Of a DNA stretch of 64,000 nt, positions 1,776 through 51,263 are shown one piece after another. The translations under genes were made by a program, and so were the position numbers. Under the pieces are notes generated by a model, which worked only from the letters and a program-made list of their open reading frames with translations, was not told the DNA's origin and made no database searches. Each line of letters opens with the position of its first letter. Position 1 is the first letter of the stretch. Where the stretch lies: positions 399,822,541 to 399,886,540 of the forward strand of contig CM054057.1 in NCBI GenBank assembly GCA_028641055.1. Reading direction: 5' to 3'. Source of the stretch: Alopecurus myosuroides (taxonomy: Eukaryota; Streptophyta; Magnoliopsida; Poales; Poaceae).

Positions 1776-1846
1776 CTACTCGTCTGCAGTGTCGTCAAAC
1801 TCCACAAAGTAGCCATCCTGGTGATCATCGTAGCCGTAGTCGTACT
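1776..1846 (-). other. LTR micro-gene, terminal coding exon (A, 3' LTR copy)
   Basis: On the - strand a TTTACGCAG acceptor is followed by 71 nt. Entered in phase 1, it encodes an acidic, Tyr-rich peptide containing QDGYFVEFDDTADE and then TAG. The D counterpart (35990-36060) has the same length, phase and stop, and some of the differences between the two are synonymous third-position changes. The identical role in transcripts is inference. Confidence 0.6.
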
Positions 1847-3090: not shown

Positions 3091-3168
3091 CTGGAAGCTC
3101 AGCAGCCGGGTACTGGGCTAGGTCCTGGGTAGTGGTGTCGTAAGTCTCGTCGGTACCAACGTCGTCGT
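3091..3168 (-). other. LTR micro-gene, middle coding exon (A, 3' LTR copy)
   Basis: It is bounded on the - strand by an acceptor CTTAG and a GC-type donor CCAG|GCAAGT. It is 78 nt long, entered and left in phase 1, and encodes an acidic peptide with DDVGTDETYDTTTQDLAQY. One codon longer than D's exon (34694-34768), otherwise close. Confidence 0.6.
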
Positions 3169-21091: not shown

Positions 21092-21919
21092 TCACGCAGG
21101 ACGGCGGCGAGTACGGCGAGTGGTACGACGAAGAGGACGGCGAGGAGGAGTGTGCACACGGAAGTAGGTATCACGACGATCCCTGTAGATAGGAACTGCT
21201 CTGAGAGCAACTCTCGGGGTGGTGAAGTAGAAAGCGTCTTCTCCCTGTGCTCCATAGCGGGGAATCCCTGTGTAACCAGCTCCGAGGTCGAGAAGTGGGC
21301 CTCTGATCGGCTCGTAACCTCCAGCATCTGGCAGAGGAAAACCCAGTGTCTGCTGGAAACGCGCAAAGCGCTCGTCTCCAACGAAGTCTGTGGTGTACGT
21401 CGCCAGACGCGTCAACGCGAGGTAGAGCTGCTCCCTGACTGAGGCCAACTCCTGAGCAAGTGTGGAAGCAACGGCGTCACTGTGCCTCACGAACTGGGCA
21501 GTGGTGTGCAGCCTGGAGCTATCATCCTCGTAGGTATCCAGGTTGCGGTGGAGAGTGAAGTGAACGCCCGCCGACGTGATGTAACCACGAGGGATGTGAC
21601 GATAGATAGAATCGTCAAACCCCCAGTAGTCAGCACGGAGGACGGTGAGACTCACGTAAGCGGCCTGCTGCACAGCCATATCCACTGTGGAACCTACTGC
21701 CTCGTAGCGGTGGACAACGCTCCTGCCATCATCCGACAGAATGTAGACGATGGCTCGGTAGAAAGTCTGCTCGAACTCGCGCTGGTGCTCGTAGACCTGG
21801 TACTCTGGTGCCCAACGGAACCCCAGATAGGTAACCATGTCCCTCAGCATCTCCGGATAACCGGCGGTGCTCTCGCAACGGGTCATGCGAACCACCTGCG
21901 GGTAGTAGCTGAGACCCAT
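21092..21919 (-). CDS. Extra sense ORF upstream of gag in A, dsRBM-like fold
   Basis: This 275-codon ORF begins at the ATG at 21919, chosen because CTGCAG directly precedes it and because D and C have the same CAG|ATG arrangement. It is about 80% or more like D's ORF. After a helix-like segment (PEMLRDMVTYLGF) come PEYQVYEHQ and YRAIVYILSDDGR (beta strands) and GSTVDMAVQQAAYVSLTVLR (helix), the order of a double-stranded-RNA-binding motif. A predicted helical middle and an Arg-rich C-terminus (RRTTRRTRRR) follow. The Lys cluster that contacts RNA in typical dsRBMs is missing. It is not gag, pol or env. Function unknown; the fold is inferred by eye. Confidence 0.72.
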   Translation of the reverse strand: MGLSYYPQVVRMTRCESTAGYPEMLRDMVTYLGFRWAPEYQVYEHQREFEQTFYRAIVYILSDDGRSVVHRYEAVGSTVDMAVQQAAYVSLTVLRADYWGFDDSIYRHIPRGYITSAGVHFTLHRNLDTYEDDSSRLHTTAQFVRHSDAVASTLAQELASVREQLYLALTRLATYTTDFVGDERFARFQQTLGFPLPDAGGYEPIRGPLLDLGAGYTGIPRYGAQGEDAFYFTTPRVALRAVPIYRDRRDTYFRVHTPPRRPLRRTTRRTRRRPA

Positions 21920-22293
21920 CTGCAGATGATTTGGAAGGTTTTGATTAGGCGCCGGTAAGAGAAAAGGAAGTGGAAAACAACAACAAGATTCAATGGACGA
22001 TAGGTTCTTTAAAAGAACAGGATATCGAAGCAACAACGGGAAAACGAGACCAAAAGTCCTGAGGTACTAAGGAGAACCCAAAACACGTGAAATCCTAACT
22101 TGAAAGTTTAGGTGAGAACAGAAAACAACGTTGCACTTCCTTACCAGAAAAGGGTGGGTGGGTGGGGAAAGAAGAAAAATGGCAGAATTCCTACTCTCAC
22201 GTTTCATTTTTCCTATATAGCTACAAAATAGTTTCTAGACTCAACTGCGACCAGTAAAAAGGATCCTACAGGCAGACAGGCTCTGATACCATT
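21920..22293 (-). promoter_or_regulatory. Element A leader: primer site, splice donor, acceptor
   Basis: The tRNA-iMet primer site lies at 22279-22291, two bases from the LTR. A CTG|GTAAGG donor (intron starting at 22144 on the - strand) and the CTGCAG acceptor ending at 21920 would remove a 225-nt leader intron and place the extra ORF's ATG at the exon start. Confidence 0.65.
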
Positions 22294-31052: not shown

Positions 31053-31796
31053 TCAGTATCCTCCAAAGTCGAAAGGAAGTGGAACTGGAGCACCATAGTA
31101 GCGACGAACAGACTCGTCCTGCGGTCCGTGGGGAGACTGTGGTACACCACGCACCATCCTAGGCCTCCTGAGGCGTCCACGAGGGGGAACATCACCTCCA
31201 ACATCTGGAGACGCAACCGAGGAAGGCACAAGTACAGCTGGAAGCTCTATCTCAGAGGCATGGACAATACCACTCTCCACGAATGGCCTCACTCTGTCTG
31301 TCACAGTCCTGAGACTAACTGCAAGGGTGTTGACTAGTGCACTAAGCTCACGCTCGCGACGAGCATAAGCAGCAAGAAGATCAGCGCTGCACCTAAGTGT
31401 AAGATCTTCCTCCTGGGAGGAATCAGCAAAGGTGTGAGTATAACACCCCTCAAGAGTAGCATCTGAACCAGGGCAGTAACGGAAGGAGCTATGCTCGTGG
31501 TCTGGATAGTGGTAACGAAGCTCATTAAGACAGTGCCGTGCAGCATCCTGCACAGCCATCTCAATGGTGAAACCAATACCCTCAGCGTAGTGCTCAGCAG
31601 GAAAGATGGTGCCATCTAGCTGTGGGAGACGGACACCACACAAGTACTGGGTCTGGTTGAAGTCACGGTACTCCTCATACACAGTGTACACAGGATACCA
31701 AGGGGCTCCTATGTTTGCACAGGCTGAGGCTAAGAGATGAGGAAAACCTGGAACTCCAAGGCATAGTGTATGTCCAACAACCTGACCAGAAGGCAT
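31053..31796 (-). CDS. Extra sense ORF upstream of gag in C, dsRBM-like fold
   Basis: This 247-codon ORF starts with MPSGQVVGH at 31796, with TTTCAG directly before the ATG. It is strongly diverged from the A and D ORFs but has the same layout: a helix (FPHLLASACANIG), PVYTVYEEYRDFNQTQYLCG strands, an AEGIGFT turn, and a helix (IEMAVQDAARHCLNELRY). It then shares FRYCPG (FRHIPR in D), a helical stretch (RERELSALVNTLAVSLRTV) and a basic segment RGRLRRPRMVRG. That pattern survives large sequence change without stops, which argues for selection on a protein. Function unknown. Confidence 0.72.
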   Translation of the reverse strand: MPSGQVVGHTLCLGVPGFPHLLASACANIGAPWYPVYTVYEEYRDFNQTQYLCGVRLPQLDGTIFPAEHYAEGIGFTIEMAVQDAARHCLNELRYHYPDHEHSSFRYCPGSDATLEGCYTHTFADSSQEEDLTLRCSADLLAAYARRERELSALVNTLAVSLRTVTDRVRPFVESGIVHASEIELPAVLVPSSVASPDVGGDVPPRGRLRRPRMVRGVPQSPHGPQDESVRRYYGAPVPLPFDFGGY

Positions 31797-32125
31797 CTGA
31801 AACAAAGACATTTTCAAGATGTCAAAAGACATGAAGAAATGACTTGAATTTGGAACGATAACAACCTGAGACATAGTACTCGGAAGAAAAACACCCAACG
31901 GTTTTACTCCTAACTTTTGAGACAACAACAAGCAAACAACCCACAAAAACAAATGAGATACGATGACTCAGAGTTAGAGCGATACCAGGTAAGGAGCAAA
32001 AAGAATCCTAAGAGGGTTTTCATAACTCATTTTGTCTTTTCACAAATAGTTTTCACAAGTTCTAGACTCAACATCGACCAACGGCAAGGGTTTCCTACAG
32101 GCAGTCCTGCTCTGATACCAAGACC
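31797..32125 (-). promoter_or_regulatory. Element C leader with primer binding site
   Basis: TGGTATCAGAGC on the - strand (32109-32120), five bases from the LTR end, pairs with initiator Met-tRNA. The leader shares GAGTCTAGAA with D's leader. It ends in a T-rich tract and CAG before the extra ORF. Confidence 0.85.
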
Positions 32126-32215: not shown

Positions 32216-32988
32216 TGTAACATCCAAGTATGAAAACCCTTAGTTGTTTTACTTGTTGTTTTTATTTAAGCAATGCATCATATCATCATCCTCATATTTA
32301 TTTCTGTTTGCATTGTTTTCATATGAATTTCAAACTTGTTTTCAATTACTGTTTTCACACTTGTCTGTTACAACCTTTCAACTAAAGAATTGCAAACTTA
32401 AAAACCTCTTTGTTTCCAAGCAATCCCTTTTAATGCACCTTTTGAGTTGTTGCTTAAAAGCAATTAACCAAGTTAATCTTTTATTTCCAAGTTATTTTCC
32501 AAACTCAAAACAAATCTCAATTCATTAATCCTTTTGAATCCCTAGTGTTCAACACATTTTGGTATTCATCAAACATTCTAAGCTATAGGGTAAACCCTAT
32601 TGAAAACAACCTAGTTTCTAAATAATAATTAATATGGCAAAATTCATTTATTTTGGTTCAATTTCAAAACAGCAATAAAACATTTGAAATTTTGAAAACC
32701 TAAACTACCAAATGGTTTCTGTTCACTTGAGAAGCCTACCTAATTTTTTCCAAATTTTTATCTACACTAAAACCTATCTAATTTATCCAAAAGCAAACTA
32801 CAAAAAAAATAAATCAGAAAAAAGAATAAAAGCAGCAGGGAGGAGAGCAGCAGCTAAGGGCCCAAGAGACCAGCCCGTTTTTCCCCCTGGCCCGTTACCC
32901 TTCCTCCACGTCGCTGTCTTCCTCACGCTTTTTCTGACGTCACCTGTACGACCGCACGCCCATCGTCGATCGCCTCCAGGAGCTCCCG

Positions 32989-33358
32989 ATGGCCGCCGTA
33001 CCACTCCCCCGTTTCGATAAAAGGCACCACGGCCCCCTCCGGCCACTCAACCCTAGCTCCACCCTTCTCCTCTGCGCCGCCAACCTCCTTCCTCTTCCCC
33101 CCAAGCCTCTGCTTTTTTCTCTGAACCCACCGGCGATCTCTGAAACCACCACCGCAGACCACCTGTTCCCCATCTCGTCGCCGGCCACACCTTCACCCCG
33201 AGGCGCCACCGCCACCGGGAATGGAACCGCCTACCTCCCCTCTTCCGGTTCGACATCTCGGTTGAGCCCGAGGAGACTCCTAGCCTCGCCGCCGTCGACC
33301 TCTAGCTGCCGCCGTCAGAGCTGCTTCGACCGCGCCACCCTCTGCTCGACCCGCCGCG
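32989..33358 (+). other. Candidate first exon of the D LTR micro-gene
   Basis: An ATG-led frame (MAAVPLPRF...) of 123 codons plus one base ends at CGCG|GTGAGC, so its exit phase (1) fits the middle exon at 34694. Against it: the ATG lies upstream of the TATA-like box at 33016, and A lacks an ATG in the matching phase. The N-terminus is unresolved. The second copy is at 43138-43507. Confidence 0.3.
33016..33056 (+). promoter_or_regulatory. Probable LTR promoter (D)
   Basis: GATAAAAGG (33016-33024) followed about 30 nt later by CAACCCTAG (telo-box, ending 33056). The copy in the 3' LTR is at 33016+10149. Confidence 0.4.
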
Positions 33359-33599
33359 GTGAGCCCCCGATCACCTCCTCTTCCTCCTTGTATCTGCTCC
33401 ACGCCCACCATCGCAACGAGCGTCCCCGGTGCCTTCTAGCTCTTGCACACGATCCAGGAACAAGCAAGCGGCTTGATCTCTGCATCCCTCGTTTCTGAAT
33501 CGCGAGCAACGAACTGCACTTGGTTTCTGTCAGAAAATTCAGTTAAGGCTCCCATCTTAACGTTACCTTGCACTCGCCCTAGTTACTGACAAAACTGAA

Positions 33600-33670
33600 G
33601 CCAACAGCGCAGCGGTAGCGCTGTTCTCTCGCGCGCACAAGGTCCCGTGTTCGAATCCCCACGGAGGGAA
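33600..33670 (+). other. tRNA-like module in D LTR
   Basis: GCGCAGCGGTAGCGCT (33607-33622) resembles a tRNA D-arm/A-box. AGGTCCCGTGTTCGAATCCC resembles the variable loop plus B-box, at normal tRNA spacing. The T-stem is only partly paired and no acceptor stem is evident. The second copy starts at 43756. Confidence 0.55.
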
Positions 33671-34523
33671 TAAACCCCCACTTTTTTTCAGCTACGCGCA
33701 GGGGATGGGACCCACGGGTCAGTGACCCCCGTCGCCACCTCACCTTCCACCCCGCCACGCTGGCGCCGTGGCCCACAGCCAGTGGCTGCGGCTAGGTTAC
33801 TGCAAGTAACAAATGGTTAAAAACGTTTCTGATATTTTCCAAATATTCTTTAATGGGCAGAATAAACTATAAACTTCAAAATTCCATATCTTGGGTTTTA
33901 TAAATCCAACCAATACAAACTTGATGTCTATTCTGATCCAAATTTCATGAACATTCCAAATATGCAATTTGTGTTCTGTTTTGAAATTTCAAAATGCAAT
34001 CGAAATTCAAATTCAAATAATTCAAATGCAATTTGAAATAATTCATAACTAATTCATACTGTTTTCAAATAAATCAAATAAAATATGTTTTTCACACCTT
34101 TTTGAATGTTCTATTCAAATATAAATTTTGTTTTCTGGTTTGAACAATTTAAATTGCCTAAACTATTTAATTCTTGTTTAATTCAATTAAAAATTGATTA
34201 ATTTTGTTTAATTCATAAATAATTAATCCAAAGTCCAATTTCAAATTGTGAAACATGTAATCCAACTAAAATTTGATAAACTTTTCAAATATAAAATTTG
34301 TAATTTGTTTTGCACACTTTAAATTGATGATAACAACATCTACTTGTGTGCCATGTTAAGTAACAAAATCCCAAATTTGATAAATGCCCTTCTAAATTGT
34401 TAATTATCATTCTAATTGCAATTAACTTGTTATCTTATTGTTCCTCATCATGCATGCATCATACTAATTCAACCACACCTAATGCTTAGTGATAGAACAA
34501 TTAATCCAACTCCAAGCATGGGC

Positions 34524-34551
34524 TTCCATATGCACCCCTTTGCATATGGAA
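34524..34551 (+). other. LTR hairpin, D version
   Basis: TTCCATATGCA-cccctt-TGCATATGGAA is a perfect 11-bp stem with a 6-nt loop. The second copy is at 44673-44700. Confidence 0.75.
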
Positions 34552-34693
34552 TCCATTTAAACTTGTGTTTCATGTCAATCAAGTTATTTTGGTGCATCTA
34601 TTAAACCTGACATGCATCATCCAATGTTGTGCATCTATGCCATGTATTGATTGCCCGTCTTCCTTCGTTGTTGTTTTGCTTCTTCTCGATTAG

Positions 34694-34768
34694 ACGACGA
34701 CGTTGGTACCGACGAGCCTTACGACACCACTACTCAGGACCTAGCCCAGTACGAGGCTGAGCTGCCAG
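34694..34768 (+). other. LTR micro-gene, middle coding exon (D, 5' LTR)
   Basis: The acceptor TCTCGATTAG and the GC-type donor CCAG|GCAAGT bound 75 nt. Entered and left in phase 1, it encodes DDVGTDEPYDTTTQDLAQY followed by EAELPG: acidic, no Lys or Arg. Entry and exit phases agree with C (48442-48504), E (51204-51263) and A. Confidence 0.62.
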
Positions 34769-35076
34769 GCAAGTTATCACTCACATGAATCATCGCGTTC
34801 CTTTCCACACTTGTTGTCGATACTATCTTTTTGTCTACTATTGCTAGCCCTATGTATCGTTGCTTGCTCTCCGAACCCATCACATGATACCTTGAGCCAT
34901 GATATTGCCACCACCTCCATACCTACAGCCTTTGCTTGTGCCTGTTATCATCTAGCATGCTTAGGGTTGCTTTTACTCGAGTCTGTTGTCGGTTACTACT
35001 TTTACTACCTTATTATCTTGTACCGGGGCTCGTTATTAATCAATCAATCCTGTTAATTGCTAGTGGTAATAATAAT

Positions 35077-35251
35077 TTGATGATAAGGCACCGGCAGGAG
35101 GCCCATGAGTGGTTTTGGAGCCTGCTAGTGTCGACCCTAATAGGAAAAGGGTCTTGTCTACTGATCCATGATGAGCGCACTACCCGCATTTGGGAAGCGA
35201 GTATGGGCGCCCCCCTCAACTTGACCTGATTCGCATCTCGTCCAAATCGCC
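35077..35251 (+). other. Conserved LTR block (D)
   Basis: Lies inside the GC-AG intron (34769-35989). Much more conserved with A and B than the surrounding LTR; not coding in any shared frame. Confidence 0.5.
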
Positions 35252-35533
35252 TCATTTAGTTCGTGTTTTCCATTTGCCGCATGCATGTTTTTGCGAGCCC
35301 AGCGCAGGGTGGAACTTTCGTAGTCGGCATATAGGGGGACACGGTCTTAGAGTGCTATGATGGTCCATTTTCTTCTGGGCTTGATTAGCCGTGCGCCCAA
35401 GGTTCTTTGGGCTTGATGCGAGGAATGGTTGGTTGTGTTGAGTGCCCCGCTTGGTGGGAGGCATCCCATCTGGCGGGATATTCATGAGTGTACGGCCAAA
35501 TTGGTGCAACCCTGCAGGGATAATCTTCTCGAG

Positions 35534-35558
35534 AAGCCGTGTTTTCCGCGGTTATGGA
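35534..35558 (+). other. Conserved CCGTG/CGCGG hairpin motif (D)
   Basis: AAGCCGTGTTTTCCGCGGTT then ATGGA, preceded by the perfect 12-bp palindrome CTTCTCGAGAAG (35525-35536). Present in all five long-LTR types in this window. Confidence 0.6.
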
Positions 35559-35989
35559 TTACTTGGTGAAAGTACTGGCTAACAAGTACTCAGGACAACT
35601 TCAACATAATGATCAATCATGTTTCACCCAATGATTAATAACCTGACTAGTAATAGGTTATTCACACCATAACTTGATTCACCTTATTTACAACTGTGTG
35701 AGTTATCCTCGGATTGCTTCTTTGGATAAGGGGCGAGATCCAGGATGGGTTTGGTTGAAGTTATCTTTCAGTTGGTTACAATCCTCGATCTTATCTTTTC
35801 TGTTAGCCGGAACTTGTAGATCTTTCTGTAGTTGGTTAGAGCAGCCAGCAGCAACTTTTATATCACCCCCTTTCTTCCGTTGATCCCAAGCATCTATGCT
35901 TGTGTTGACGGGTAACTCCTTGATGAACTGTGAGTCTTGCTTGCCAGTACTTGGATGTACTGACCCCGTTGGGGCTGTGGTTTACGCAG

Positions 35990-36060
35990 AGTACTACTAC
36001 GACTACGATGCTTCCCAGGATGGCTACTTTGTGGAGTTCGATGACGCTGCAGACGAGTAG
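35990..36060 (+). other. LTR micro-gene, terminal coding exon (D, 5' LTR)
   Basis: After TTTACGCAG, 71 nt in phase 1 encode Y/D-rich residues, QDGYFVEFDDAADE and TAG (36058-36060). The preceding intron (34769-35989, 1221 bp) would be a GC-AG intron. Confidence 0.62.
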
Positions 36061-36536
36061 TTAGCTGGACCAGGGCAGGATCCAGACCTTCGTGGATGGG
36101 CTTCGCTTTTCTTTATGTTCTCAGGCTTCTTAAGCCATGGATTTGTCTGTACTCAGACCCCTTTGATTGCTTCCGCTGTTGTAATGGATGATATGTTGGG
36201 ACATGTGTCCTCTGGATGACTGTATTCGATATTTTCTGCCTTAGTGAAGGCCAGTTGCACTTATTTCATTCTTTTGTGTCTTAGAGACATTCTGTGTTAT
36301 CATTCGTACCAAACTGTTGACGTACCGTGCGTGTTTGATTATGAAGTACGTCGACAGTAGTGCCTTTAGGTTCCTAGCGGATAGTTTACCTCGACGGTGG
36401 AAGCAGGGCTTGTGTTGTCGCGCATAAGCGCAGGCCTACCAGGAAGCTGGGACGTGGGAGCAGTTATGCCCCATAATCCAAGCACCTGACTTCCAGTTCG
36501 TGCGAGGAGTATCCTCTAGAAACCCAGGGTGCGACA

Positions 36537-36910
36537 AATGGTATCAGAGCCTGTCTGCCTGTAGGATCCCTTTTTACTGGTCGCAGTTGAGTCTAGAAAC
36601 TATTTTGTAGCTATATAGGAAAAATGAAACGTGAGAGTAGGAATTCTGCCATTTTTCTTCTTTCCCCACCCACCCACCCTTTTCTGGTAAGGAAGTGAAA
36701 CGTTGTTTTCTGTTCTCACCTAAACTTTCAAGTTAGGATTTCACGTGTTTTGGGTTCTCTGTAGTACCTCAGGACTTTTGGTCTCGTTTTCCCGATGTTG
36801 CTTCGATATCATGTTCTTTCAACATCCTTTTCGTCCGTTGAACCTTGTTGTTTTTCCACATCCTTTTCCTTCTACCGGAGTCTAATCAAAACCTTCCAAA
36901 TAATCTGCAG
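36537..36910 (+). promoter_or_regulatory. Element D leader: primer site and leader intron
   Basis: TGGTATCAGAGCC (36539-36551) pairs with initiator Met-tRNA. A strong donor TTCTG|GTAAGG (intron start 36687) and an acceptor TCTGCAG ending at 36910 would form a 224-nt intron whose removal puts the extra ORF's ATG at the first base of the next exon. Confidence 0.68.
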
Positions 36911-37726
36911 ATGGGTCTCAACTACTATCCGCAGGTGGTTCGCATGACTCGCTGTGAGAGCACCGCCGGTTTCCCGGAGTTGCTGAGAGACATGGTTACC
37001 TATCTGGGGTTCCATTGGGCACCAGAGTACCAGGTCTACGAGCACCAGCGAGAGTGTGACCAGACTTGCTACCGGGCTATCGTCTACATTCTGTCGGATG
37101 ATGGCAGGAGCATTGCACACCAGTACGAGGCAGTAGGGTCCACAGTGGATATGGCAGTGCAGCAGGCAGCGTACGTGAGTGTCACCGTTCTCCGTGCTGA
37201 CTACTGGGGGTTTGATAAGTCCAGTTTTCGTCACATCCCCCGTGGTTACATCACGGCAGCGGGAGCTCACTTCACTATCCACCGCGACATGGATACCTAC
37301 GAGACTGATAGCTCCAGGCTCCAGGTCACTGCCCAGTTCGCTAGTCACAGTGATGCCGTTGCTTCCGCACTTTCTCAGGAGTTAGCCTCAGTCCGGGAGC
37401 AGCTCCGCCTTGCTCTCACTCGTCTGGCGACGTACACCACAGACTTTGTTGGAGACGAGCGCTTCGCACGTGTCGTTCAGCCAGCTGGTCTTCCGTTGCC
37501 AGATGCTGGAGGTTACGAGCCGATCAGAGGTCCACTTCTCGATCTCGGAGCTGGTTACACAGGGATTCCCCGCTTTGGAGCACAGGGATACGACGCTTCC
37601 TACTTCACGACACCGAGAGTTGCTCTCAGAGAAGTTCCTATCTACAGGGATCGTCGTGATACCTACTTCCGTGGGATTCCTCCTCACCGTATCTCTCGTC
37701 GTACTACTCACCGCCGTCCTGCGTGA
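36911..37726 (+). CDS. Extra sense ORF upstream of gag in D, dsRBM-like fold
   Basis: 271 codons. The start at 36911 follows CTGCAG and matches C and A; a longer frame from 36845 is open but not shared. Residues 21-34 (FPELLRDMVTYLGF) look like helix 1, 38-48 and 54-61 (PEYQVYEHQRE, YRAIVYIL) strands 1 and 2, about 69-75 strand 3, and 76-95 (GSTVDMAVQQAAYVSVTVLR) helix 2: the double-stranded-RNA-binding fold order. A helical segment at about 150-185 (SDAVASALSQELASVREQL) and a basic C-terminal tail (RRTTHRRP) follow. The usual KKxxK of dsRBM helix 2 is absent, so RNA binding is not certain. No transmembrane segment, so it is not an env gene. Confidence 0.75.
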   Translation: MGLNYYPQVVRMTRCESTAGFPELLRDMVTYLGFHWAPEYQVYEHQRECDQTCYRAIVYILSDDGRSIAHQYEAVGSTVDMAVQQAAYVSVTVLRADYWGFDKSSFRHIPRGYITAAGAHFTIHRDMDTYETDSSRLQVTAQFASHSDAVASALSQELASVREQLRLALTRLATYTTDFVGDERFARVVQPAGLPLPDAGGYEPIRGPLLDLGAGYTGIPRFGAQGYDASYFTTPRVALREVPIYRDRRDTYFRGIPPHRISRRTTHRRPA

Positions 37727-37937
37727 TGAGCATGGGAGTACCGTTGTATCCATTACTAGCTGTGTCTAGTTTATCCTTTCGTTTTCGAACCATGTATTGG
37801 TCTGTTGGATATTCTGATGTATTTGAACATGTGATGATGTACCTGTTGGTTATCTATTCATGCGTCGGAATAATCTATCTTTCGGTTACCAAGTCTATCC
37901 TTTTCTGTTGTTGTGCTAAAATGAATTTCTGTTCAGG
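37727..37937 (+). other. Element D spacer before gag with acceptor
   Basis: 211 bp, T-rich toward its end (CTTTTCTGTTGTTGTG), closing with TTCTGTTCAG|G directly before the gag ATG: a probable 3' splice site giving a gag-specific mRNA. Confidence 0.6.
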
Positions 37938-40900
37938 ATGCCTCCAACCAGGAACAACCCGCCACCGCCACCACCAATGGGGGAGCTGTTGGCTCAGATG
38001 ACCCAAGTGGTGACACAGATGGCCCAGATCCAGGCTAACCAGCAACACAACCAGAATGCTCCAAGGGTCACCATCAAGGACTTCCTCAGCTTGGGCCCAA
38101 AAGCTTTCGTGACAACACGTGAGCCCCTGGATGCTGATGACTGGATCCGTGACGTAGCAAGAGCTCTGGAGATAGCTCATGTTGCTGAAGAGGATAAGGT
38201 CAAGTACGCCACCTACCTACTGAAGGGTCAGGCAGCTACTTGGTGGGAGAACTACCAGGCCATGAGGGCTGGTTTTCCTATCAACTGGGGATGTTTCAGA
38301 GATGCCTTCCTGAAGCACCACATCCCGGATGGTCTCATGGAAAAGATGCGTGAGGAATTCTGCTCTCTCAGACAGGGCAAGCTGGACGTTCTCGGCTACC
38401 AGAACGAGTTCAATCGTCTCGCTCGGTACGCTGGTGACGAAGTGTCCACCGAAGCCAAGAAGATGGCAAGGTTCCGCCGAGGTTTTAACCCGGAACTGAA
38501 GTACGCTCTCACAAACATCAAGTGCAAGGACTTCGTGGAGCTCGTGAACACCGCGCTCAATGAGGAGAATGGGCGCAAGGCGTTCGAGGAGTCGCGCAAG
38601 CACTCGCGTGAGGGTGGTTCCTCCTCCAACATGACCACCCCTCCGCAGAAGCGCCGCATCTGGGTGCCAAATGGTGCTGTCACTCGGGCTCCAAATGCCC
38701 AAGCTTCTCCAGGCTTTGGTCCCCGCCCACCCAACCCATCTCAGATGCAGGGTCAGAGGTTTCCAATGGGGCAGCCAAGGCCGGGTCCTTCTCGCATCGT
38801 CACTTGCTACAAGTGCAAGGATACTGGACATTATGCTGACAAGTGCACTCAGAAGCAGCTACCCCTACCTCCTCGCCCCAACACCAACCAGGCTATGGTT
38901 CGTGCTCCTCCGGCTAAAGCCTTCAACTCCAACAATAGGCCTGTCGGGAGGAACGCGAGGGTGAACCATATCAAGGCCGACAAAGCCGAAGAGGCTGCTG
39001 ACGTCGTTCTCGGTATATTACCCGTAAACTCTATTCCAGCTAAAGTGTTGTTTGATACTGGAGCATCGCATTCGTTTGTGTCAAAGATCTTTGCTACAAC
39101 GTACAATCTAGCTCTGGTTCCGCTAAGCAATCAAATCTATGTGCACTCTCCGGGAAATAAAATGATTACTTCCAAGATAAGCATGGACAATCAGATCCTA
39201 ATTGGAGGTCGTGTATTCCTTGCTTCACTCATGTTGCTGGGAAATTCTGACATTGATGTCATTCTGGGTATGGATTGGTTGAAGACCCACAAAGCTAAAA
39301 TTGACTGTGCTCAAAAGTCAATAACTCTCTCCCACACTTCAGGCCAGATAGTCTATTCTCCATATGGATCAACTTCTGCTCAGCTGTTCAGCCTTGATGC
39401 CAAACCCCTGCCTGCAATTGAGGATGTTCCGGTGGTTTGTGACTTCCCTGACGTCTTTCCAGAAGAGTTGCCAGGGATGCCTCCGGACAGAGCAGTTGAG
39501 TTCGTGATCGAGCTTGAGCCAGGTACTGCTCCAATCTCTAAGCATCCATACAAGATAGCTCCTCCTGAACTGAAATTGTGGAAGGAGCAAATCGATATGT
39601 ATATGGACAAAGGTTTCATTCAGCCTAGTTCCTCCGCTTGGGGTTGCCCAACTCTGTTTGTTGCCAAGAAGGATCAAACAAAAAGACTCGTGGTTGACTA
39701 TCGTCCTCTCAACGAGAAAACCATCAAGAACAAGTATCCACTTCCTCGTATCGATGATCTTTTTGATCAACTTGCTGGAGCCTCAATATTCTCAAAGTTG
39801 GACTTGAGGATGGGTTACCATCAGATAAAGATCAGAAAGGAAGATATTCCTAAGACAGCTTTCACCACTAGGTACGGTCTATATGAATACACCGTCATGT
39901 CCTTTGGTCTCACCAATGCACCGGCAACGTTCTCAAGACTCATGAATTCTGTCTTCCATGAATACCTCGACAAGTTCGTTGTGGTATATCTTGATGACAT
40001 TCTAGTCTACTCAAAATCCGAGGAAGAGCATGGAGAACACCTTCGTCTCACTCTCATGAAACTTCGCGAGCATAGTTTGTATGCCAAGTTTTCAAAATGT
40101 GAGTTCTGGATTCCAGAAGTTGCATATCTTGGTCATATCATCTCTGCCAAGGGCATTGCCATTGATCCTGAAAAGGTTAAGGCAATTGTTGACTGGAAAC
40201 CCCCTAAGACGGTGAAACAAGTTAGAAGCTTTCTTGGCTTGGCTAGCTATTGCCGTCGTTTCGTCCAAAACTTTTCCAAGATTGCTAAACCTCTCACTGA
40301 TCTCACAAAGAAGGACAAAAAGTTCGTTTGGACTCCACAATGTGATGAGAGTTTCAACCTCCTGAAGACTAAACTCACTTCCACACCTGTTCTAGTTGGC
40401 CCCGACACCACAAAACCTTTCCAGATATTCTGTGATGCATCTCTCCAAGGACTAGGAGCAGTTCTTATGCAAGAACGTCAAGTTGTGGCTTATGCTTCAC
40501 GTCAGTTGAACCCACATGAGCAAAACTATCCCACTCATGATCTTGAACTTGCAGCAGTAGTGTTTGCCCTCAAGAAATGGAGACAATACTTGTTGGGTAA
40601 CAAAACTGAAATCTTTTCCGATCACAAGAGTCTTAAATACATCTTCACTCAGCCAGATCTGAACCTCAGGCAAAGGAGATGGATTGAGAAGATTAAAGAC
40701 TTTGATCTCACCATTTCTTACACTCCAGGCAAGGCTAATGTTATGGCCGATGCTCTCAGTCGCAAATCCTATTGCAATAATCTCATGATCAGGGAGAGCC
40801 AACCTCCACTTCATGAAGAATTCCAGAAGCTGAACCTTGGTCTTGTTCCGGAAGGATACCTTGCTAGCTTGACAGCCAGCCCAACTCTCGAGGACAAGAT

Positions 40901-42326
40901 TCGTTCTGAACAACTTCGTGATAATGAAATCAAGAAGATTGTGGATCACATCAAGGAGGGCAATGATAAATTCAAGTCCTTCTCAATTGATGACAAGGGA
41001 ACGGTGTTCTTCGAAGGACGCATTGCAGTCCCTCAGATTCAAAGTCTCAAGGATATCATTCTCAAGGAGGCTCATGAAACTCCCCTATCCATTCACCCTG
41101 GAAGTACAAAGATGTACCAGGATCTCAAGACTCTGTATTGGTGGCCTGGCATGAAACGTGAAATTGCTCAATACGTTTCTGAATGCGACGTTTGTCAACG
41201 TGTTAAGGCAGTCCATCAGAAGACAGCAGGTCTACTCCAACCTCTGAAAATTCCTGAGTGGAAGTGGGACATGATTGAAATGGACTTCGTTACTGGGTTT
41301 CCAAAGTCCAAAAAGGGCAACGATGCAATCTTCGTTGTTATTGATCGTCTCACTAAGGTTGCTCACTTCTATGCTGTAAAGGAAACTATCTCAGCTAGCC
41401 AGTTAGCAGAGCTCTACACAGCAAAGGTTGTTCCCCTTCATGGTGTTCCATTGGAAATAAGCTCAGACCGTGGAAGTATCTTCACTTCTCATTTCTGGAA
41501 AAGCTTTCAAGAAGCATTGGGCACTAAACTTCTGTTCAGCACAGCTTATCACCCTCAGTCTCAAGGGCAAGTCGAAAGAGTCAATCAGATTCTCGAGGAT
41601 ATGCTCAGAGCATGTGGTCTCTCCTTTGGCATGAAATGGGAGGATTGCCTTCCATATGCTGAATTCTCCTACAACAACAGCTACCAGGCAAGCCTAGGCA
41701 TGGCACCATTTGAGGCACTGTATGGTCGCAGATGCAGGAGTCCAATCAATTGGTCTGGAGCTGGTGAACGTTCACTTCTAGGCCCTGACATTGTTAAGGA
41801 AGCCGAGGAGAAAGTTCGTATCATTCGTGACAATCTCAGGATTGCTCAGTCTCGTCAGAAGAGCTATTATGATAGCAAGCACAGGGATATGGTCTATGCA
41901 CCTGGTGATAAGGCATATCTCCGTGTAACTCCCCTCAGAGGCACTCATCGTTTTGGTGTGAAAGGAAAGCTTGCACCAAGATACATTGGCCCTTTCAACA
42001 TCCTCTCAAGACGTGCAGAGAATGCTTATCGTCTTGAACTTCCAGAAAAACTATCCAAAGTGCACGATGTGTTCCACGTGTCACAACTCAAGAAGTGTTT
42101 CAAAGATCCAGATCGTGCAGTTGATCATGATTCCATTGAGCTGCAAGATGATCTATCTTATGAGGAGCACCCTATTCGTATTCTCGATGAGACCGAGCGT
42201 AAGACTCGCAACAAGAGCACCAAGTTCTTGAAAGTTCAATGGTCGCATCATTCTGATAAAGAGGCAACATGGGAGACCGAGGAGGATCTTCGCAAGAAGT
42301 ATCCGGACCTGTTCATTTCTCAGTAG
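37938..42326 (+). CDS. Gag-Pol polyprotein of element D
   Basis: 1462 aa in one frame without stops. Domains: Pro-rich N-terminus, Gag capsid-like region (about 45-230), CCHC zinc knuckle starting at Cys290 ([14 protein letters not shown]), aspartic protease with active Asp373 ([10 protein letters not shown]), reverse transcriptase with YLDD at 684-687, RNase H with Asp833, integrase HHCC zinc region (His1053, Cys1083, Cys1086), DDE core with Asp1116, Asp1177 and Glu1213 (35 residues between the last two), and a C-terminal chromodomain (about 1413-1462, [16 protein letters not shown]). This order (RT before integrase, chromodomain last) is that of Tekay/Del-type chromoviruses. Gag and Pol share one frame, so no frameshift is needed. 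It appears complete and possibly functional. Confidence 0.96.
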
Positions 42327-42364
42327 GGAATCTCGGGGCGCGATTCCTTCAAGGGGGGGCGTTT
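42327..42364 (+). promoter_or_regulatory. Element D polypurine tract and hairpin
   Basis: Right after TAG, GGAATC-tCG-ggg-CGc-GATTCC (42327-42347), then AAGGGGGGGCG (42351-42361) and the 3' LTR. Confidence 0.88.
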
Positions 42365-44842
42365 TGTAACATCCAAGTATGAAAACCCTTAGTTGTTTTA
42401 CTTGTTGTTTTTATTTAAGCAATGCATCATATCATCATCCTCATATTTATTTCTGTTTGCATTGTTTTCATATGAATTTCAAACTTGTTTTCAATTACTG
42501 TTTTCACACTTGTCTGTTACAACCTTTCAACTAAAGAATTGCAAACTTAAAAACCTCTTTGTTTCCAAGCAATCCCTTTTAATGCACCTTTTGAGTTGTT
42601 GCTTAAAAGCAATTAACCAAGTTAATCTTTTATTTCCAAGTTATTTTCCAAACTCAAAACAAATCTCAATTCATTAATCCTTTTGAATCCCTAGTGTTCA
42701 ACACATTTTGGTATTCATCAAACATTCTAAGCTATAGGGTAAACCCTATTGAAAACAACCTAGTTTCTAAATAATAATTAATATGGCAAAATTCATTTAT
42801 TTTGGTTCAATTTCAAAACAGCAATAAAACATTTGAAATTTTGAAAACCTAAACTACCAAATGGTTTCTGTTCACTTGAGAAGCCTACCTAATTTTTTCC
42901 AAATTTTTATCTACACTAAAACCTATCTAATTTATCCAAAAGCAAACTACAAAAAAAATAAATCAGAAAAAAGAATAAAAGCAGCAGGGAGGAGAGCAGC
43001 AGCTAAGGGCCCAAGAGACCAGCCCGTTTTCCCCCCTGGCCCGTTACCCTTCCTCCACGTCGCTGTCTTCCTCACGCTTTTTCTGACGTCACCTGTACGA
43101 CCGCACGCCCATCGTCGATCGCCTCCAGGAGCTCCCGATGGCCGCCGTACCACTCCCCCGTTTCGATAAAAGGCACCACGGCCCCCTCCGGCCACTCAAC
43201 CCTAGCTCCACCCTTCTCCTCTGCGCCGCCAACCTCCTTCCTCTTCCCCCCAAGCCTCTGCTTTTTTCTCTGAACCCACCGGCGATCTCTGAAACCACCA
43301 CCGCAGACCACCTGTTCCCCATCTCGTCGCCGGCCACACCTTCACCCCGAGGCGCCACCGCCACCGGGAATGGAACCGCCTACCTCCCCTCTTCCGGTTC
43401 GACATCTCGGTTGAGCCCGAGGAGACTCCTAGCCTCGCCGCCGTCGACCTCTAGCTGCCGCCGTCAGAGCTGCTTCGACCGCGCCACCCTCTGCTCGACC
43501 CGCCGCGGTGAGCCCCCGATCACCTCCTCTTCCTCCTTGTATCTGCTCCACGCCCACCATCGCAACGAGCGTCCCCGGTGCCTTCTAGCTCTTGCACACG
43601 ATCCAGGAACAAGCAAGCGGCTTGATCTCTGCATCCCTCGTTTCTGAATCGCGAGCAACGAACTGCACTTGGTTTCTGTCAGAAAATTCAGTTAAGGCTC
43701 CCATCTTAACGTTACCTTGCACTCGCCCTAGTTACTGACAAAACTGAAGCCAACAGCGCAGCGGTAGCGCTGTTCTCTCGCGCGCACAAGGTCCCGTGTT
43801 CGAATCCCCACGGAGGGAATAAACCCCCACTTTTTTTCAGCTACGCGCAGGGGATGGGACCCACGGGTCAGTGACCCCCGTCGCCACCTCACCTTCCACC
43901 CCGCCACGCTGGCGCCGTGGCCCACAGCCAGTGGCTGCGGCTAGGTTACTGCAAGTAACAAATGGTTAAAAACGTTTCTGATATTTTCCAAATATTCTTT
44001 AATGGGCAGAATAAACTATAAACTTCAAAATTCCATATCTTGGGTTTTATAAATCCAACCAATACAAACTTGATGTCTATTCTGATCCAAATTTCATGAA
44101 CATTCCAAATATGTAATTTGTGTTCTGTTTTGAAATTTCAAAATGCAATCTAAATTCAAATTCAAATAATTCAAATGCAATTTGAAATAATTCATAACTA
44201 ATTCATACTGTTTTCAAATAAATCAAATAAAATATGTTTTTCACACCTTTTTGAATGTTCTATTCAAATATAAATTTTGTTTTCTGGTTTGAACAATTTA
44301 AATTGCCTAAACTATTTAATTCTTGTTTAATTCAATTAAAAATTGTTTAATTTTGTTTAATTCATAAATAATTAATCCAAAGTCCAATTTCAAATTGTGA
44401 AACATGTAATCCAACTAAAATTTGATAAACTTTTCAAATATAAAATTTGTAATTTGTTTTGCACACTTTAAATTGATGATAACAACATCTACTTGTGTGC
44501 CATGTTAAGTAACAAAATCCCAAATTTGATAAATGCCCTTCTAAATTGTTAATTATCATTCTAATTGCAATTAACTTGTTATCTTATTGTTCCTCATCAT
44601 GCATGCATCATACTAATTCAACCACACCTAATGCTTAGTGATAGAACAATTAATCCAACTCCAAGCATGGGCTTCCATATGCACCCCTTTGCATATGGAA
44701 TCCATTTAAACTTGTGTTTCATGTCAATCAAGTTATTTTGGTGCATCTATTAAACCTGACATGCATCATCCAATGTTGTGCATCTATGCCATGTATTGAT
44801 TGCCCGTCTTCCTTCGTTGTTGTTTTGCTTCTTCTCGATTAG

Positions 44843-44917
44843 ACGACGACGTTGGTACCGACGAGCCTTACGACACCACTACTCAGGACCTAGCCCAGTA
44901 CGAGGCTGAGCTGCCAG
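44843..44917 (+). other. LTR micro-gene, middle exon (D, 3' LTR)
   Basis: Identical in phase and length to 34694-34768. Confidence 0.6.
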
Positions 44918-46138
44918 GCAAGTTATCACTCACATGAATCATCGCGTTCCTTTCCACACTTGTTGTCGATACTATCTTTTTGTCTACTATTGCTAGCCCT
45001 ATGTATCGTTGCTTGCTCTCCGAACCCATCACATGATACCTTGAGCCATGATATTGCCACCACCTCCATACCTACAGCCTTTGCTTGTGCCTGTTATCAT
45101 CTAGCATGCTTAGGGTTGCTTTTACTCGAGTCTGTTGTCGGTTACTACTTTTACTACCTTATTATCTTGTACCGGGGCTCGTTATTAATCAATCAATCCT
45201 GTTAATTGCTAGTGGTAATAATAATTTGATGATAAGGCACCGGCAGGAGGCCCATGAGTGGTTTTGGAGCCTGCTAGTGTCGACCCTAATAGGAAAAGGG
45301 TCTTGTCTACTGATCCATGATGAGCGCACTACCCGCATTTGGGAAGCGAGTATGGGCGCCCCCCTCAACTTGACCTGATTCGCATCTCGTCCAAATCGCC
45401 TCATTTAGTTCGTGTTTTCCATTTGCCGCATGCATGTTTTTGCGAGCCCAGCGCAGGGTGGAACTTTCGTAGTCGGCATATAGGGGGACACGGTCTTAGA
45501 GTGCTATGATGGTCCATTTTCTTCTGGGCTTGATTAGCCGTGCGCCCAAGGTTCTTTGGGCTTGATGCGAGGAATGGTTGGTTGTGTTGAGTGCCCCGCT
45601 TGGTGGGAGGCATCCCATCTGGCGGGATATTCATGAGTGTACGGCCAAATTGGTGCAACCCTGCAGGGATAATCTTCTCGAGAAGCCGTGTTTTCCGCGG
45701 TTATGGATTACTTGGTGAAAGTACTGGCTAACAAGTACTCAGGACAACTTCAACATAATGATCAATCATGTTTCACCCAATGATTAATAACCTGACTAGT
45801 AATAGGTTATTCACACCATAACTTGATTCACCTTATTTACAACTGTGTGAGTTATCCTCGGATTGCTTCTTTGGATAAGGGGCGAGATCCAGGATGGGTT
45901 TGGTTGAAGTTATCTTTCAGTTGGTTACAATCCTCGATCTTATCTTTTCTGTTAGCCGGAACTTGTAGATCTTTCTGTAGTTGGTTAGAGCAGCCAGCAG
46001 CAACTTTTATATCACCCCCTTTCTTCCGTTGATCCCAAGCATCTATGCTTGTGTTGACGGGTAACTCCTTGATGAACTGTGAGTCTTGCTTGCCAGTACT
46101 TGGATGTACTGACCCCGTTGGGGCTGTGGTTTACGCAG

Positions 46139-46209
46139 AGTACTACTACGACTACGATGCTTCCCAGGATGGCTACTTTGTGGAGTTCGATGACGCTGCA
46201 GACGAGTAG
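46139..46209 (+). other. LTR micro-gene, terminal exon (D, 3' LTR)
   Basis: Identical in phase, length and stop to 35990-36060. Confidence 0.6.
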
Positions 46210-46685
46210 TTAGCTGGACCAGGGCAGGATCCAGACCTTCGTGGATGGGCTTCGCTTTTCTTTATGTTCTCAGGCTTCTTAAGCCATGGATTTGTCTGTA
46301 CTCAGACCCCTTTGATTGCTTCCGCTGTTGTAATGGATGATATGTTGGGACATGTGTCCTCTGGATGACTGTATTCGATATTTTCTGCCTTAGTGAAGGC
46401 CAGTTGCACTTATTTCATTCTTTTGTGTCTTAGAGACATTCTGTGTTATCATTCGTACCAAACTGTTGACGTATCGTGCGTGTTTGATTATGAAGTACGT
46501 CGACAGTAGTGCCTTTAGGTTCCTAGCGGATAGTTTACCTCGACGGTGGAAGCAGGGCTTGTGTTGTCGCGCATAAGCGCAGGCCTACCAGGAAGCTGGG
46601 ACGTGGGAGCAGTTATGCCCCATAATCCAAGCACCTGACTTCCAGTTCGTGCGAGGAGTATCCTCTAGAAACCCAGGGTGCGACA

Positions 46686-47250: not shown

Positions 47251-47300
47251 CTACTCGTCGACGTCGAGGTAGAACCCCTCTTCAGCTGCATCGCCGAAGT
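47251..47300 (-). other. LTR micro-gene, terminal exon (C)
   Basis: A T-rich tract and TTTCAG acceptor, then 50 nt in phase 1 encoding FGDAAEEGFYLDVDE and TAG. Surrounding LTR sequence does not align with D, yet phase, acidity and ending are the same. Confidence 0.6.
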
Positions 47301-47634
47301 CTGAAACAAAACAACAATGAGGCAAGGTTGAGTACAAAAGGTACTCAGCAAGACTTGGCTTTTAAGGTTCTTTGCATAAAGCCAACTTTGTTTTCCGAAG
47401 TTGAGGAAGAAAAGCACGTGTAACAGAGCATTTCTAAAACAGAGGAGGAACCTACTCAACTACTGATATCATCATGTTCTTTACTCCACCAAGTACTTTC
47501 TCATCCCCAGACTACCTTATGCTACACGAATCACCCCTCTCGACATAGTCGAGGAGGCATCCTTCATTCATTGCCAGCAGGTTTTAATCATTCCGTTAGA
47601 GTTGTCTATGATCACAGAATCCATTGCCAAGTCG

Positions 47635-47655
47635 TCCATAACCGTGGACACGGCT
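47635..47655 (-). other. Conserved CCGTG/CACGG hairpin motif (C)
   Basis: Sense AGCCGTGTCCACGGTTATGG then A. Pairing CCGT/ACGG is kept with different bases from D, and the preceding palindrome is CTTTCGGAAAG instead of CTTCTCGAGAAG. Confidence 0.6.
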
Positions 47656-48441: not shown

Positions 48442-48504
48442 CTTGCTCGTCGAAAGTAGAGCTTGGGTTGTCGTAGAAAGCTGGGTCGTCCTCCGGATCT
48501 CGGT
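48442..48504 (-). other. LTR micro-gene, middle exon (C)
   Basis: Acceptor ATCGGTAG, 63 nt, donor CAAG|GCAAGC. Phase 1 in and out; encodes RDPEDDPAFYDNPSSTFDEQ, acidic. Sequence is unlike A/D apart from splice sites and character. The intron to the terminal exon spans 47301-48441. Confidence 0.6.
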
Positions 48505-50247: not shown

Positions 50248-50267
50248 TCACTCATCATCAGAAAATC
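50248..50267 (-). other. LTR micro-gene, terminal exon (E)
   Basis: After AACGTGCAG, 20 nt in phase 1 encode FSDDE and TGA. Very short, but the same phase and acidic ending as C, D and A. Confidence 0.5.
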
Positions 50268-50569
50268 CTGCACGTTGGAATATGCAGCCCCCGAAGGAGG
50301 TCAGTACAATTTGATGTACTGGCAAATTACACCTTTGGTGGATATAAAATGGCAAGCCTAATACTACATGATTACTTTGGCTAGGTGGATTTTAAGGCTA
50401 TTTGCAAAAAGCCAATTTTCTCCTAACGCTTTTGTAAAGTCATTTTGTTTTCAAAGGAGTGGCAACATTGGAATAAAATCCAAGCACCACAAACACTTAG
50501 TCAAAAATTTACTTATTGAAATTGGTGATGTGATTCTTCCGTCCATCCTTGTCCAGCTGCTCATAGTTG

Positions 50570-50590
50570 TCCATAACCGGGGACACGGCT
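50570..50590 (-). other. Conserved CCGTG motif (E)
   Basis: Sense AGCCGTGTCCCCGGTTATGG then A; CCG/CGG pairing is possible. Confidence 0.55.
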
Positions 50591-51203: not shown

Positions 51204-51263
51204 CTTGGCAGCAGGATGAGTAGGAACAACAACCACTATTGTAATATTCCTCCTCCTCACAAT
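51204..51263 (-). other. LTR micro-gene, middle exon (E)
   Basis: Acceptor TTTGTATAG, 60 nt, donor CCAAG|GCAAGT. Phase 1 in and out; encodes CEEEEYYNSGCC then a Ser/Cys-rich end. The GC-type donor is the same as in A, B, C and D. Confidence 0.52.

Follow-up and report, generated by a model that had tools for sequence, protein, structure and literature searches.

The long terminal repeats (LTRs) of a chromovirus group nested in a 64-kb stretch of Alopecurus myosuroides DNA probably contain real exons, and the reading frame of these exons is protected in the elements that carry genes, for which translation would be the simplest reason. Judging from the letters of the DNA, we lean towards the view that the LTR exons are spliced and that their frame, kept in gene-bearing elements, most likely encodes the acidic carboxyl terminus of some small translated protein.

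The window, by which we mean the whole 64-kb stretch that was analysed, is a nest of Ty3/gypsy elements (Table 1). Element D is complete, has the LTR termini TGTAAC..GCGACA, and carries a 3' LTR (42365-46685) that is 99.88% identical to its 5' LTR by self-BLAST. Element A lies on the minus strand and encloses element B, which has long LTRs with ~1 kb between them, and element F, also on the minus strand, is interrupted by both D and A. The LTR called C is the 5' LTR of F (50098 down to 46686), with D inserted within it, and the LTR called E is a fragment, cut where F inserted. The D-type elements putatively belong to the Tekay/Del-like branch of the chromoviruses; the gag-pol of D has the domain order PR-RT-RNaseH-IN and a terminal chromodomain (Pfam Chromo, PF00385, 1420-1464), as expected of a Ty3/gypsy chromovirus. 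The LTRs belong to a large group of such elements in which the LTR measures ~3.5-4.9 kb and in which the gene-bearing members that were read have an extra gene, ORF1, 5' of gag. ORF1 matches no Pfam family, is recognisable from D and A to F, and has 8 relatives among public proteins.

Table 1. Features of the window, numbered from its first base.
Feature	Position	Strand	Remarks
Element D	32216-46685	+	complete
5' LTR of D	32216..36536	+	4,321 bp; self-BLAST
TATA-like box of D	33016..33025	+	GATAAAAGGC; CAACCCTAGC ~30 nt on
First-exon donor of D, GCG|GTGAGCC	33356..33365 (GT at 33359)	+	GC-rich, fast-changing block
Exon 2 of D	34694..34768	+	75 nt; entered and left in phase 1; DDVGTDEPYDTTTQDLAQYEAELP
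GC-AG intron 2 of D	34769..35989	+	1,221 nt
Most conserved block, intron 2 of D	35525..35563	+	hairpins CTTCTCGAGAAG and CCGTG..CGCGG, then GGTTATGGATTACT
Hairpin 5' of intron-2 acceptor, D	35944..35962	+	CCAGTAC..GTACTG
Exon 3 of D, coding part	35990..36060	+	71 nt; ends FDDAADE, then TAG
Leader donor CTG|GTAAGG of D	36684..36692	+	3' of primer binding site TGGTATCAGAGC (36539-36550)
ORF1 of D, extra gene before gag	36911..37726	+	ATG immediately 3' of CTGCAG
gag-pol of D, with chromodomain	37938..42326	+	start codon directly 3' of TTCAGG
Exon 2, 3' LTR of D	44843..44917	+	identical to 5' copy
Exon 3, 3' LTR of D	46139..46209	+	identical to 5' copy
Exon 2 of A (3' LTR copy)	3091..3168	-	78 nt
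Exon 3 of A	1776..1846	-	ends FDDTADE, then TAG
Exon 2 of C (5' LTR of F)	48442..48504	-	letters read
Exon 3 of C	47251..47300	-	ends YLDVDE, then TAG
Conserved intron block of C	47630..47655	-	pattern match
Exon 2 of E	51204..51263	-	60 nt; open in two frames; weak
Exon 3 of E	50248..50267	-	20 nt; ends FSDDE, then TGA
Conserved intron block of E	50565..50590	-	pattern match
Further ORF1 copies	21092-22066 and 31053-31967	-	between LTR and gag
Predicted peptide tail, example			DGYFVEFDDAADE

A sequence-only reading of the window had proposed that LTRs A, C, D and E share a short exon bounded by an AG acceptor and an AG|GCAAG donor, followed by a terminal exon that is entered after an AG and ends in an acidic run and a stop. 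The letters bear this out: all eight exon intervals have the sites, phase 1 is kept throughout, and the acidic tails are those that had been named (Table 1). The exon sites also recur above chance: the pattern TAG-exon-AG|GCAAGT has 26,183 genomic matches and the terminal exon 42,768, and reversing either pattern gives 0. The AG|GCAAG donor and the AG acceptor are conserved across copies, which at the level of sequence is what marks a GC-AG intron. Among the four LTRs E is the weak case. Its relatives keep ..EDE or ..KDE and a stop in exon 3, and those with a readable exon 2 (L067/68 and L069/70) both have a stop there in the claimed frame. The GCAAG donor is present in 6 of 10 C/E-type genomic copies; three of the pieces may have missed the site, and one copy (L065) has GGAAAG instead. 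G-type LTRs (10 copies) have kept the donor in nine cases and the hairpin, and have lost the acidic frame. In the 5' LTR copy of A exon 2 measures 79 nt and is off frame, and the LTR of B, ~80% identical to A and D, has lost the exon-2 acceptor AG and has both exons off frame.

The evidence that the frame matters comes from the genomic copies. Lengths and spacings were counted on the first 100 matches listed per pattern, mostly from one chromosome, in the host assembly (G000, 3.57 Gb), spacing being the distance between successive listed places with strand disregarded; the genes themselves were read in D, A, F, L039, L040, L042, L043, L045, L049 and L051, and their presence elsewhere was deduced from LTR spacing. 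Where the acceptor is intact, the length of exon 2 is a multiple of three in 95 of the 100 listed copies (78 nt in 80, 81 nt in nine and 75 nt in six, with five off), as against 59 of 100 (41 off) where it is lost, a contrast with a Fisher P of 7e-10 among copies that are not independent. Of the 99 gaps in the acceptor-intact list, 31 measure 8.5-11 kb and 4 measure 4-6.6 kb; in the acceptor-lost list the same two classes hold 0 and 34 gaps; some long-spaced elements that were read directly carry ORF1 and gag, and the short-spaced L046 has ~1 kb between its LTRs. For exon 3, the listed copies in and off frame number 37 and 1 at gene-bearing spacing, 21 and 10 at short spacing, and 28 and 3 when unpaired (Fisher P = 0.0016).

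The contrast is repeated in a second, distant lineage. In C-type LTRs exon 2 is 63 nt long in 99 of 100 listed copies (tallied by eye), and 25 of their gaps are 8.5-11 kb. In the C' type it measures 106-114 nt, with all three residues represented (45, 21 and 34 of the listed copies), and exon-3 lengths vary too; here 26 of the listed gaps measure 7.0-7.6 kb and the 8.5-11 kb class is empty, gene content being judged by spacing. One C' copy (L061/62) has both exons shifted to another phase and still reads through in frame, and another (L063/64) has no read-through. Copies within a lineage are not independent, and the P values therefore overstate the case; that the same pattern is repeated in two lineages is the stronger point.

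Distinct off-frame gap runs number 1 in 146 nt of exon, compared with 62 in 1,221 nt of intron, 26 in 375 nt downstream and 12 in 158 nt upstream (P ~0.005). The sample consisted of 25 rows, not picked by frame, that represent 22 distinct copies (L042 = L009, L043 = L013, L044 = L014), and the duplicate loci leave the counts of distinct gap runs unchanged. L010-type copies have a shortened exon 3, which was scored under intron since the gap run starts ahead of the boundary; direct reading gives this exon 65 nt instead of 71 nt, in frame. Off-frame indels are thus rarer in the exons than in the flanking LTR, and in gene-bearing elements the two pieces behave as exons whose frame is shielded from such indels.

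The substitution pattern of the host copies points in the same direction, and weakly. For the two exons together omega is 0.55 in the claimed frame (LRT 4.4; 12 copies chosen with open frames) and 1.21 and 1.33 in the other frames, that is, below 1 in the claimed frame only, although an equally low value was reached by 1 of 27 intron pseudo-exons that served as controls. For exon 2 alone omega is 0.565 (LRT 6.0; 36 copies), with 0.80 and 1.18 in the other frames; these 36 sequences were retained out of 66 after leaving out off-length rows, one internally shifted sequence, two with an in-frame stop, and near-duplicates. Between D and A, ORF1 (dN/dS 0.35) and gag-pol (0.12-0.20) are more constrained than the LTR exons. 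The C of the window differs from two C-type copies by 3 and 4 synonymous and by 2 and 1 non-synonymous codons. Compared with shuffled sequences, the exon peptides of A and C resemble each other (P = 0.018), those of D and C less so (P = 0.116), and that of E resembles A, D and C no better than the shuffled ones do (P = 0.6-0.9). No protein homologue and no Pfam match was found, and no relatives were confirmed in viral or bacterial collections.

Of the small acidic protein separate from Gag-Pol that had also been proposed, the protected exon frame stands, and its completeness as an independent protein is unsupported: no protein relative was found, E is weak, and an in-phase Met above the GGTGAG donor is present in 2 of 13 LTRs only (D and L047). 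The Met of D lies upstream of the TATA-like box, L045 has an in-phase Met above a different donor, and in C the frame above the first-exon donor closes within 2 codons. The likely transcription start, judged by its place after the TATA-like box, is CAACCCTAGC; a TATA-like box followed by AACCCTA is found in D, A, L039 and E, and the pattern is without a match in C, L043, L044 and L045. In the GC-rich block the motif GGTGAG[CG] recurs in 10 of 11 LTRs (300 random resamples gave a mean of 0.42 and a largest value of 4), but because the opposite strand has the motif in 5 of 11, the recurrence of this first-exon donor is suggestive and not decisive. ATG is mildly rare before the donor, with 13 seen and 17.4 expected in 11 LTRs, and exon 1 has no three-base rhythm in the one pair compared. 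The LTRs are mosaic in this region. The block, at LTR positions ~620-1540 (~32835-33755 in D), gives no BLAST match between L039 and L052 or between D and L040, though these are 95-96% identical downstream; L039 and L041 are 58% identical in it over 306 nt without gaps.

Other sources of a start were tried and rejected. When D, A, C and E were searched for an upstream coding exon with an AUG and a phase-1 donor, a single candidate had a fair donor; it occurs in D alone and starts before the TATA-like box. The conserved AUG and GT columns in the alignable part of intron 1 of eight LTRs likewise yielded no exon that combines an AUG with a credible donor. An unspliced frame running into exon 2 from above is open with a Met in 6 of 13 LTRs; in the other 7 it meets a stop within 16 codons and has no Met; the closing of this frame fits an exon boundary at that place and yields no start. 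With the start codon still missing after these searches, a hidden small protein is likely, short of demonstrated.

The internal region has splice-like sites of its own. In 10 of 10 elements read, among them F, an ORF1 ATG and the gag ATG are each immediately preceded by CAG or CAGG (in D, CTGCAG|ATG at 36905-36915 and TTCAG|GATG at 37932-37942, plus strand), as would be expected if both were reached by splicing, and alternative splicing of ORF1 and gag into two messages is possible; in F the ORF1 ATG that follows the CAG is not the first Met of ORF1. The donor CTG|GTAAGG is present in the leaders of the A/D clade. A leader ATG 3' of the primer binding site opens a short frame that runs to this donor (36624-36686, plus strand); by eye it would join ORF1 in phase in D, and in F with a weaker donor, and it is broken by single-base changes in L039 and L051. 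That the exons supply a tail to Pol or ORF1 by splicing into the 3' LTR was considered and rejected: a home-made scoring matrix gave no GT donor above threshold in ORF1 or gag-pol of D and A, and one in the pol of F. A site resembling a GC donor, CCAG|GCAAG, lies in pol at ~40729 (plus strand), in phase 1 and just after RNase H, in D and in 8 of 8 matching A/D-clade copies, and is absent in F.

Given this wider splicing layout of the leader, with its first-exon donor and the CAG before the ATGs, the exons may belong to the leader RNA as much as to a micro-gene. Exons 1-3 might then be 5' untranslated and serve to shorten a ~3.5-kb leader so that ribosomes reach ORF1 and gag; the acidic frame would merely reflect purine-rich GAC/GAG splicing enhancers, and the sites would be lost from non-autonomous copies, which lack genes that need expressing. 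The fact that 11 of 13 LTRs have no start codon in phase above the donor, the sites before the ORF1 and gag ATGs, the leader donor, and the lack of three-base rhythm in exon 1 all agree with such a non-coding leader, as does the loss of the acceptor in step with short spacing, which recalls the loss in BARE2 of the splicing of BARE1 (available text of PMC3735527). It does not predict, however, that indels should come in threes in two exons and two lineages, or that omega should fall below 1 in one frame only, and the ATGs before the donor are less depleted than a scanned leader would suggest. We consider it unlikely, if far from negligible.

The sequence-only reading had held that C and E hardly align with A and D outside the exons. 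This was wrong, for the best-conserved stretch that they share lies inside the GC-AG intron. There C and A are 85% identical over 59 nt, and the alignment search gave just two matches between C and E, of 34 and 26 nt, both intronic. The pattern AGCCGTGT..CGGTTATGGA (written AGCCGTGTN{2,7}CGGTTATGGANNACT) is found in every one of the window's 8 LTR copies that cover this place and in 0 of 100 shuffles, and a shorter form, GCCGTGT..CGGTTATGGA (35537-35563 in D, plus strand), has 53,850 exact matches in the 3.57-Gb assembly (26,839 + 27,011, against 2 + 0 for the reversed control). The first hairpin of the block, CTTCTCGAGAAG, has changes on both sides, with the variants CTTC/GAAG, CTTT/AAAG and CTAA/TTAG around the block, and the second, CCGTG..CGCGG, has one pair broken in E. 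A further hairpin, before the acceptor, reads CAGTAC/GTACTG in D and GAGTAC..GTACTC in C-type LTRs. Hairpins were counted with self-written patterns, of which H4 matched 11 of 14 sequences and missed three of E type (by eye AATAC..GTATT), and H5 matched the wrong place in several rows. No match to a known RNA family was found. Among eight autonomous-type LTRs identity is ~0.85 across the 3' half of the LTR, with exons 2 and 3 not above intron 2.

That there is no splicing here, the 3' half of the LTR being conserved for RNA or DNA structure and the exons arising from pattern-finding and lineage effects, is improbable: the exons are no better conserved than their surroundings, the most conserved block sits in the supposed intron and the counted copies are not independent, but lineages that otherwise align poorly share the GC donor, the acceptors and the frame, it is precisely the copies without the acceptor that often have off-frame lengths, and the GGTGAG donor recurs in a hard-to-align block, albeit one with the motif on the opposite strand of 5 of 11 LTRs.

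If the LTR exons are spliced and translated, as we prefer to think, the RNA would begin in the LTR and be spliced from a GC-rich first exon to exon 2 (60-81 nt) and from there, across a GC-AG intron of 0.9-1.2 kb, to exon 3, a layout that we infer from the recurring sites. Exons 2 and 3 would give the acidic carboxyl end of a small protein; the constraint on their frame in gene-bearing elements is observed, and translation is its most likely cause. The start could be a non-AUG codon or could lie in an unrecognised first coding exon. The intron holds the best-conserved hairpin block, and unspliced (genomic) and spliced (message) RNA would therefore differ by that block, which might mark genomic RNA for packaging. 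It is possible in broader terms, and we entertain the idea without quite expecting it, that the autonomous chromoviruses of this grass group have LTR coding exons with a conserved GC-AG intron and an acidic C-terminal module, kept over deep divergence and lost in non-autonomous kin, with the amino end supplied by a non-AUG start or by exchangeable first exons. Exchangeable first exons come into question since LTRs with 95-96% identity elsewhere have exchanged or turned over the GC-rich block.

Coding sequence within an LTR is familiar from the sag gene of MMTV and the nef gene of HIV, which are expressed from spliced RNA, have an AUG, and lie in the U3 of the 3' LTR. The exons described here differ in lying downstream of the likely transcription start, and no AUG was found for them. 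Searches of the open-access literature turned up no account of in-frame exons, or of ORFs, lying in plant LTRs. The nearest described behaviour is that of the Ty1/copia elements BARE1 and BARE2 of barley, where splicing is confined to the autonomous partner: in the available text of PMC3735527, the autonomous element has a spliced, capped RNA, its parasitic partner is unspliced yet packaged, and there are separate RNA pools for translation and replication. Unlike the LTR exons, however, the BARE intron described there lies at the gag end of the internal region, has a GT donor, and is accompanied by no LTR exons (PMC3735527).

Additional ORFs of plant LTR retrotransposons, extra genes beyond gag-pol of which some are spliced and some env-like, e.g. 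Bagy2, are treated in PMC7264820; as far as the available text goes, these sit in the internal region, whereas the present exons are inside the LTR, and the wording "within the LTR" or "inside the LTR" is absent from it. Such ORFs are placed in the LTR-gag or the pol-LTR interval, which excludes the LTR exons; ORF1 of D would fit. The LTRs of Sireviruses (copia) have conserved palindromic non-coding blocks amid diverged sequence, and repeated CGG-CCG boxes near the TATA box (PMC2829016, available text). The intron block is like these motifs in being conserved and palindromic, and differs in that a single hairpin block lies here inside an intron (PMC2829016).

Were the preferred reading true, one of the commonest sequence groups of the grass genome (~54,000 intron-block matches) would encode an extra protein module within its repeats, and annotation would miss this module because it is split, tiny and without an obvious start. 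Retention or loss of the acceptor and the frame would then provide a simple sequence test to separate gene-bearing from parasitic copies, and with the best-conserved RNA-like block located within the intron, the sorting of genomic RNA from message would become directly testable in plant retrotransposons.

As a minor observation, the G-type LTRs at G000:C1:761563-770693 stand in head-to-tail rows with a spacing of ~4.55 kb, and TGGTATCAGAGC lies 800 bases past the motif in both G-type copies within L047.
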